Notes under the pieces: model-generated | What the model was told of the DNA's origin: nothing | What the model saw: the letters and a program-made list of their open reading frames with translations, nothing else | The model's database searches: none | Translations under genes and position numbers: made by a program | Assembly: GCA_013112535.1 (NCBI GenBank) | Contig: JABFGI010000001.1 | Coordinates: forward strand, 124,001 to 188,000 | Length of the DNA stretch: 64,000 nucleotides | From: Pseudomonadota bacterium | GTDB taxonomy: Bacteria; Pseudomonadota; Gammaproteobacteria; Eutrophobiales; Eutrophobiaceae | Direction: 5' to 3' | Shown here: one piece after another, positions 1,986-3,065 of the stretch | Position numbering within the stretch: position 1 is the first letter of the stretch | How the letters are laid out: each line of letters starts with the position of its first letter

Positions 1986-2007
1986 AGACGTACACTTATT
2001 GACTAGT

Positions 2008-2045
2008 GTAGCAAAATAAGCTACAAACGTAGCAATAATAGCTAC
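2008..2045. promoter_or_regulatory. Twin palindromic operator before the MNT-HEPN pair
   Basis: Two copies of GTAGC-N7-GCTAC occur at 2008-2024 and 2029-2045. Their centres are 21 bp apart, which is two helical turns, so two dimers could bind on one face of the DNA. The second copy ends 5 bases before the first possible ATG (2051), where a ribosome binding site would normally be. The natural candidate binder is the winged-helix protein encoded immediately downstream, as in autoregulated toxin-antitoxin loci. Binding is inferred, not shown. Confidence 0.65.
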
Positions 2046-2050
2046 TATAA

Positions 2051-2641
2051 ATGTATATGTCTTCAAAATTAGCAGAAATATTATTCAAGGATTACCGGCG
2101 ACATGTTCTTGCTCTGTTGTTGTTAAACCCGGATAAACAATATCATGTACGTGAAATCGCCCGACTTACCGGTACAGTCGCAGGCACCTTACATAAAGAA
2201 TTGTCTCGTTTGGCAGAAGCAGGCATTTTAGACAAAAAAAAGAATGGCAATCAGGTGCAATATTTTGCTGATCAGAATTGCCCGATATTTGATGAACTTG
2301 CTAGTATCCTGCGTAAAACTTTTGGAGCGGTAGAAGTCCTGGCTCAAGCATTGGCAACATTAGAAGAAAATATTGATGTTGCCTTGATCTTCGGTTCATT
2401 GGCGAGCGGGAAAGAGACTGCTGCCAGTGATATAGATTTGTTAGTGATTGGAAAAGTAACGTTGGCTGAAGTGGCTAAAGCTGTTTACTCAAGTCAGGAC
2501 GTTTTACAACGCGAAATAAACCCTAAAGTCTATACAAAAAAGGAATGGGAAAAGTTACAGGCAAAAAAAGATGGCTTTGCCAAAGAAGTCATGAAGCAAC
2601 CGAAATTATTTATTAAAGGAGCTAAGGATGAGCTTGAATAA
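2051..2641 (+). CDS. Winged-helix / MNT-type nucleotidyltransferase (antitoxin-like)
   Basis: This 196-aa protein joins two domains. Residues about 10-75 form a winged helix with the recognition segment HVREIARLTGTVAGTLHKEL and a wing around KKNGNQVQYF. Residues about 105-160 hold the minimal nucleotidyltransferase signature: Gly115-Ser116, ten residues, then Asp127-x-Asp129, so the metal site looks intact. In MNT-HEPN toxin-antitoxin systems the MNT partner neutralises the HEPN toxin by transferring nucleotides to it. The next gene, overlapping by 14 bases, is HEPN-like. ATG 2051 and ATG 2057 are both possible starts and neither has a clear Shine-Dalgarno sequence. The fused DNA-binding domain probably acts on the twin palindromes just upstream. 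Confidence 0.8.
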   Translation: MYMSSKLAEILFKDYRRHVLALLLLNPDKQYHVREIARLTGTVAGTLHKELSRLAEAGILDKKKNGNQVQYFADQNCPIFDELASILRKTFGAVEVLAQALATLEENIDVALIFGSLASGKETAASDIDLLVIGKVTLAEVAKAVYSSQDVLQREINPKVYTKKEWEKLQAKKDGFAKEVMKQPKLFIKGAKDELE

Positions 2642-3065
2642 GCTGGCAGGGAAAACACTGGAAAATATCGAACCAGACAGTACAACAATTATACGATTAT
2701 TGAATGCGGCAGAACGTAATATTCAGGATGCACATATCAACAAAGTGAGTGATGAAAACAGATTTGACGCGGCGTATAAATCAATAATGCAATCAGCAAA
2801 TGCAGCATTACAGGCGAATGGCTATAGAACGTTATCCAGTAAACCCGGTCATCATATGACATTAATTCAGTCATTAAGTAAAACAATAGAACTTGATGCC
2901 GATACAATTATTATTCTGGATACATTAAGAAAACAACGTAATGCGACAGACTATTCTGGTCATACTGTTCCGGAAAGTGCGATGAAAGAATGTTTGTCCT
3001 GTGCAGAAAACCTTTTACATGATGTAAGGCACTGGATAGAAAAAAATAATCCCGATCTATTATAA
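2628..3065 (+). CDS. HEPN-like protein (putative toxin partner)
   Basis: A 145-aa all-helical protein whose start overlaps the MNT gene by 14 bases, so the two are probably translationally coupled. The HEPN-type signature lies near residue 104 as R-N-A-T-D-Y with a His at 112. Canonical HEPN ribonucleases have Arg, then Asn/Asp/His, then three residues and His, so here Tyr109 stands where the catalytic His is expected. That leaves open whether it is an active ribonuclease, a variant using His112, or a non-catalytic partner. A Tyr beside this motif is notable because MntA-type enzymes are known to AMPylate a Tyr in HepT toxins. The family assignment is by pattern and context. Confidence 0.65.

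Follow-up and report, generated by a model that had tools for sequence, protein, structure and literature searches.

Few two-gene modules of prokaryotes are as common as the HEPN/MNT pairs. In class I, the type VII HepT-MntA systems, the MNT protein AMPylates a tyrosine of the HEPN protein and neutralises its toxicity; the Shewanella pair (SO_3166/SO_3165) has the MNT gene first and the HEPN gene second, as here, and its MntA binds its own promoter, where two palindromes lie near the -35 and -10, and represses it 1.6-fold (PMC4621449). Class II HEPN/MNT pairs had received no biochemical study by 2020 (Yao et al. 2020, PMC7641770), and the part of that article's text that was searched describes neither promoters nor an HTH fusion. 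Makarova et al. surmised in 2009 that a distinct component might have to supply the DNA binding (PMC2701414), and a paper on the L. pneumophila HEPN-MNT pair mentions neither a winged helix nor an operator (PMC11586414). In the type IV AbiE system the winged helix-turn-helix (wHTH) antitoxin AbiEi represses its own operon via promoter inverted repeats and has a nucleotidyltransferase as partner, but the wHTH is fused there to an antitoxin domain and not to the nucleotidyltransferase, no HEPN is involved, and the repeats (11-23 bp) lie far apart (N27 between 11-bp arms), unlike those described below (PMC3985639).

The locus analysed here lies in a window of 64,000 nucleotides (contig JABFGI010000001.1, positions 124,001 to 188,000) from a gammaproteobacterium of the Eutrophobiaceae. 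It resembles class II HEPN/MNT, as far as the searched part of PMC7641770 describes it, in having the same two genes, an MNT with GSX10DXD, a PF05168 HEPN with a conserved tyrosine, and no RX4HXY. It differs from the 2009 guess in that the DNA-binding part is within the MNT protein itself, and from Shewanella MntA, which has no predicted DNA-binding domain and two dissimilar palindromes, in that a fused wHTH here accompanies four matched half-sites in a fixed register. Compared with class II HEPN/MNT and PDC-M05 as described, it is the operator anatomy that is new. We found no description of an operator of wHTH-MNT genes in the literature searched, most subscription journals lying outside its coverage. 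The predicted operator gives class II HEPN/MNT a new promoter anatomy, inside the known theme of antitoxin autoregulation.

The MNT-HEPN module and its twin palindrome

Features of the wHTH-MNT/HEPN locus in window coordinates
Feature	Position	Strand	Remarks
-35 box TTGACT (5/6)	1999..2004	+	17 bp before -10; same in L030
Palindrome O1, GTAGC-N7-GCTAC, GTAGCAAAATAAGCTAC	2008-2024		half-sites 2008-2012 and 2020-2024; in promoter spacer
-10 box TACAAA (4/6)	2022..2027	+	partly formed by inner half-site; TACAAT in several relatives
Palindrome O2, GTAGC-N7-GCTAC, GTAGCAATAATAGCTAC	2029-2045		half-sites 2029-2033 and 2041-2045; over predicted start point
wHTH-MNT gene (PDC-M05A)	2051..2641	+	start at 2051, or at 2057 judging from homologues
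Winged helix-turn-helix domain	residues 8-75, 2072..2275	+	AlphaFold model; ArsR/SmtB/MarR matches
Recognition helix of wHTH	residues 44-56, 2180-2218	+	
Minimal nucleotidyltransferase domain	residues 95-191, 2333..2623	+	Pfam PF18765/PF01909 (Polbeta/NTP_transf_2)
GSX10DXD motif of MNT	residues 115-129, 2393-2437	+	
HEPN gene (PDC-M05B, PF05168)	2628..3065	+	14-nt overlap with MNT gene

Both components of the module were found by the PADLOC models (PDC-M05A, E 5e-77; PDC-M05B, E 1e-63); the families recognised by Pfam, NCBIfam and PADLOC were MNT and HEPN, and none of these scans gave an AbiEi/AbiEii component. AlphaFold models, run with the plasmid rows left out, were obtained with pLDDT 86 for the wHTH-MNT protein and 95 for HEPN. 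The preliminary description of this DNA had given the MNT protein a winged helix of its own, and the model and the Foldseek search agree on it: residues 1-91 match winged helices of the ArsR/SmtB and MarR repressors, which share this fold but not its fusion to an MNT domain, whereas residues 84-191 have the MNT antitoxins 8xeo/8xeh as their best PDB match. The HEPN model matches the fold of 2hsb. A sequence search of the PDB gave only weak matches for the wHTH and none for HEPN. G115, S116, D127 and D129 of the MNT domain are invariant in 56 homologues, so the GSX10DXD of class II is present, and the HEPN protein scores 26.1 bits against PF05168 (cut-off 22), again as in class II. In the HEPN of the window (2937-2954) and in its homologues RNxxxYxG is invariant (R104, N105, Y109, G111), together with R67; no conserved histidine was found among these homologues and RX4HXY is absent, which sets the pair apart from class I and agrees with class II. 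The invariant Y109 is a candidate for the AMPylation site, by comparison with the tyrosine modified in HepT-MntA.

The two palindromes upstream had been described as perfect identical copies, which holds for their 5-bp arms but not for the 7-bp spacers (AAAATAA in O1, AATAATA in O2). Their centres, measured at 2016 and 2037, are 21 bp apart, that is, two turns at 10.5 bp, and the single helical phase assigned to them earlier is correct. Shuffling predicts 0.02 GTAGC-N7-GCTAC sites for the whole window, and none of the shuffles held two. In the 3.05-Mb genome the twin palindrome occurs at one locus, even allowing 3 mismatches, while the single palindrome is found elsewhere in two places, compared with one for the reversed-pattern control. 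A regulon was also considered and was rejected, as a second twin site is absent from the genome and the two single matches are near the control level. The first ATG (2051) lies 6 bp past O2, although on comparison with L030 and L006 the ATG at 2057 is the more likely start. The adjacency of two sites to the start codon was rightly noted, but the arrangement is more than a pair of independent sites, with four half-sites about a central dyad that stand in register with the -35 and -10. No Shine-Dalgarno-like sequence is seen between O2 and the start codon, in keeping with the earlier remark that the palindromes take the place of a ribosome site. Elsewhere in the window, at 1349-1378, an inverted repeat with a 13-bp stem, TTGTCATTCCCGCCTGCGTGGGAATGACAA, follows a recR-like gene and is terminator-like or REP-like.

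Predicted operator geometry and promoter register among homologues

The search upstream of homologous genes that had been proposed as a check was run, and it returned the same-letter twin palindrome with 21-bp spacing in the closest homologues L030 (74% identical) and L006 (64%) and also in L090, L026 and L101, the geometry being kept family-wide. Absence of the palindrome from close homologues, named in the preliminary description as a refutation, was therefore not what the search showed. Remoter homologues have other letters (ACCC/GGGT, GTTCAT/ATGAAC and others) in an identical layout. A score for the agreement of four half-sites was computed at every position and for spacings 12-32 in 123 upstream regions; at spacing 21 the threshold is reached in 79 of them (64%), against 0-5% at each of the remaining spacings (12-20, 22-32) and 0.2% for dinucleotide shuffles at spacing 21. 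This score supersedes an earlier all-dyad palindrome scan, which also peaked at 21 but over a noisy background. Within the closer HEPN-type family 76 of 105 upstream regions score, as compared to 29 of 1956 other windows of the same loci. It may be noted that the homologues counted here are related to one another and are not independent, and that the score threshold and the set of recognition residues were picked after viewing examples; the threshold was kept unchanged for a held-out set of 64 non-identical genes collected later, of which 46 (72%) score at 21, whereas spacings 18, 19, 20, 22, 23 and 24 gave no scoring gene. About 28% of the family falls below the threshold, some with degenerate or mixed but recognisable operators (L008, L042, L044, L103), and in some below-threshold genes, such as L061 and L077, no operator was seen on inspection.

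PADLOC lists PDC-M05 as a candidate, and it is most frequent in archaea (PMC12988326). The module is mobile and in some genera plasmid-borne. Among viral contigs no relatives were found, the phages gave one distant match, which is unannotated, and in the other class sampled around G407 relatives occur in 1 of 240 genomes. On two conjugative Legionella plasmids an aminoglycoside adenylyltransferase-like gene stands right after the wHTH-MNT/HEPN pair (L125, 2472-3293; L126, 2696-3292). On a 4.6-kb plasmid of Legionella adelaidensis (L128) a wHTH-MNT gene with a twin ACCC-type operator has no adjacent annotated HEPN gene and is followed by a GNAT gene.

When the genes were aligned on the centre of their first palindrome (c1), a reference point picked without promoter signals, a fixed promoter register emerged. 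In the GTAGC operator class 77% of the genes share four or more of the six TTGACA bases at exactly c1-17, and 92% share four or more of the six TATAAT bases at c1+6; in the ACCC and GTTCAT classes the TTGACA-like and TATAAT-like sequences stand at c1-14 and c1+9, so that the spacer between them is 17 bp in all three large classes. These fixed offsets and the 17-bp spacer put O1 in the promoter spacer and O2 over the start point. For the window, the position of the -10 would place the transcript start near 2034, inside O2. The proposed promoter was missed by a generic promoter scan, since that scan accepts a -10 only with T in the sixth position. Over 30 ACCC-class genes have an in-frame ATG inside the second palindrome, one base past its centre; as this ATG comes 7 nt after the -10, a leaderless message is predicted. 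A short or leaderless mRNA would explain the absent ribosome site better than a translational block.

Co-variation of operator letters with the winged helix

Pairwise operator distance correlates with wHTH distance (r 0.68), and the partial correlation remains 0.61 (p 0.001) with MNT distance held, as opposed to 0.056 (p 0.14) for operator against MNT distance with the wHTH held. In the 54-gene set the value is 0.53 when both MNT and HEPN are held, and with the wHTH held weaker residual correlations are left (HEPN 0.22, MNT 0.09). The wHTH contains 19 of the 20 alignment columns that best track the operator. For held-out genes, the nearest wHTH was a better predictor of the operator than the nearest MNT domain in 21 cases and a worse one in 6, with 19 ties (p 0.006).

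The same dependence is visible in a natural two-by-two swap, where L046 and L038 have one MNT-HEPN body and L047 and L065 another, but the operator is ACCC in L046 and L047 and GTTCAT in L038 and L065. Within the first body (MNT 68%, HEPN 84% shared) and within the second (MNT 71%, HEPN 80%) the wHTH and the operator differ, whereas the pairs L046/L047 and L038/L065, each with the same operator and 84% wHTH identity, share only 37-38% in MNT and 32-33% in HEPN. Over the four genes, the wHTHs are 84% identical where the operator type is the same and 57-60% where it differs, MNT and HEPN are 68-84% identical in a shared body and 31-39% between bodies, and the breakpoint lies near residue 95. Judged from these sequences, different MNT-HEPN bodies have traded the wHTH domain together with its operator. 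Also, the HEPN of the window is 67% identical to that of L038, though the L038 operator is of another type. Paralogues that share a genome mostly differ in their operators, and insulation among them was tried as an explanation; it is unsupported, because same-genome pairs are not more different (operator difference 0.429) than re-paired members (0.400, p 0.15).

Probable autoregulation and competing explanations

Taken with the promoter register and the co-variation, we consider it very probable that the 38 bp at 2008-2045 are a dedicated autoregulatory operator, at which the gene's own wHTH-MNT protein would bind the four GTAGC half-sites, exclude RNA polymerase and repress the operon of this toxin-antitoxin-like (or defence) module. 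On comparative evidence, the locus has what marks an autoregulated toxin-antitoxin operon, as the operator overlaps the operon promoter and is tied to the DNA-binding domain of the antitoxin. From position, geometry, register, conservation and co-variation, which can be read directly, we infer DNA binding, stoichiometry, repression and the relief signal as follows. Four half-sites around the central dyad would be bound by the wHTH-MNT protein, probably in the form of a dimer of dimers and perhaps joined there by its HEPN partner. With O1 between the -35 and -10 and O2 over the start point, such binding would exclude RNA polymerase and the operon would be repressed; on relief, which a drop in free MNT or a shift in the MNT:HEPN ratio might for example bring about, the pair would be resynthesised.

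The preliminary description had proposed that binding blocks both transcription and translation initiation. For transcription, the conserved geometry and the wHTH co-variation support an operator of the gene's own wHTH over the promoter; for translation the proposal finds no support, since a protein bound to DNA leaves the mRNA uncovered and the transcript is predicted to begin near 2034, within O2. Control at the RNA level, with leader hairpins blocking translation, is likewise highly improbable. A transcript from upstream of 2008 would indeed form a nested hairpin of -14.1 kcal/mol, yet this fold is ordinary against shuffles (z -1.3), and from the proposed promoter O1 is untranscribed because the -35 and -10 straddle it. 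With the start inside O2 the RNA would lack one of the hairpin arms, and the leader predicted for the window shows no structure, its MFE of -2.5 kcal/mol being weaker than that of 198 of 200 shuffles, for which reasons the hairpin was rejected. In many relatives, moreover, the start codon sits in the second palindrome 7 nt past the -10 and no leader exists, and RNA-level control would leave the co-variation of the DNA with the wHTH unexplained.

That another host regulator binds the operator, the wHTH of the MNT protein having some other role, is very unlikely: the letters differ between the genes of related hosts and go with the adjacent wHTH even across swaps, the operator occurs once in the genome of the window, and it also precedes the module copies on the Legionella plasmids (L125, L126). 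We give practically no weight to chance or to a mobile-element repeat such as an insertion end, in spite of the mobility of the module and its plasmid location in some genera, as the window shuffles, the spacing-21 statistics and the held-out replication exclude chance and no further copies are present in the genome. Finally, the wHTH-MNT protein may bind but activate the promoter or keep it poised, which we regard as quite unlikely. wHTH proteins can activate, and the weak -10 of the window, with only 4 of 6 matches, is a point against the repressor reading. However, proteins bound in a promoter spacer or on a start point normally exclude polymerase, and those are the places held by O1 and O2. 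Shewanella MntA, a relative without a wHTH, represses its promoter (PMC4621449).

The arrangement of the half-sites favours a single two-fold assembly over all four. Outer half-sites agree with outer and inner with inner at 10.7 of 14, against 10.0 between the half-sites of one palindrome (p 0.003, relatedness uncorrected). In L042 the outer half-sites read GTTCTC and the inner GTAGC, giving a perfect-looking 38-bp palindrome, and L103, L049 and L094 likewise have GTTCTC outside and GTAGC inside. Only tentatively, and with some doubt, do we extend this to a fuller model in which one two-fold wHTH-MNT(-HEPN) assembly reads the four half-sites and its occupancy reports the MNT:HEPN state, the wHTH and operator form a specificity cassette swappable between bodies, and the operator of ACCC-type genes encloses the start codon of a leaderless message. 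In that event promoter, operator and start codon would be one compact unit in the ACCC-type subgroup, which is a large one.

As the wHTH is within the MNT protein and most genes show their operator in the sequence itself, expression control of PDC-M05 is directly testable. The operator may also serve to locate the promoter and true start codon of the module bioinformatically, and the natural series of wHTH-operator pairs (GTAGC, GTTCAT, ACCC, GTTCTC, GTAACT, GTACTC, GTGCTA and others) together with the two-by-two swap offers a study of specificity change in winged helices.

Two further observations concern operator variants. Mixed operators, with GTTCTC or similar outside and a GCTAC half-site inside, occur in L042, L103, L049, L094, L008 and L044. 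In a sister wHTH-MNT subfamily (~30% identical), 12 of the 13 genes inspected (L016, L017, L018, L019, L020, L024, L025, L028, L096, L099, L119, L123) are preceded by one GTTCT-N7-AGAAC palindrome, likewise 17 bp in size. No neighbouring HEPN gene was found there; mostly polysaccharide ABC-exporter genes come after them (ABC-2 permease and ATPase, named by eye from sequence), and in the remainder a sugar aminotransferase or other genes.
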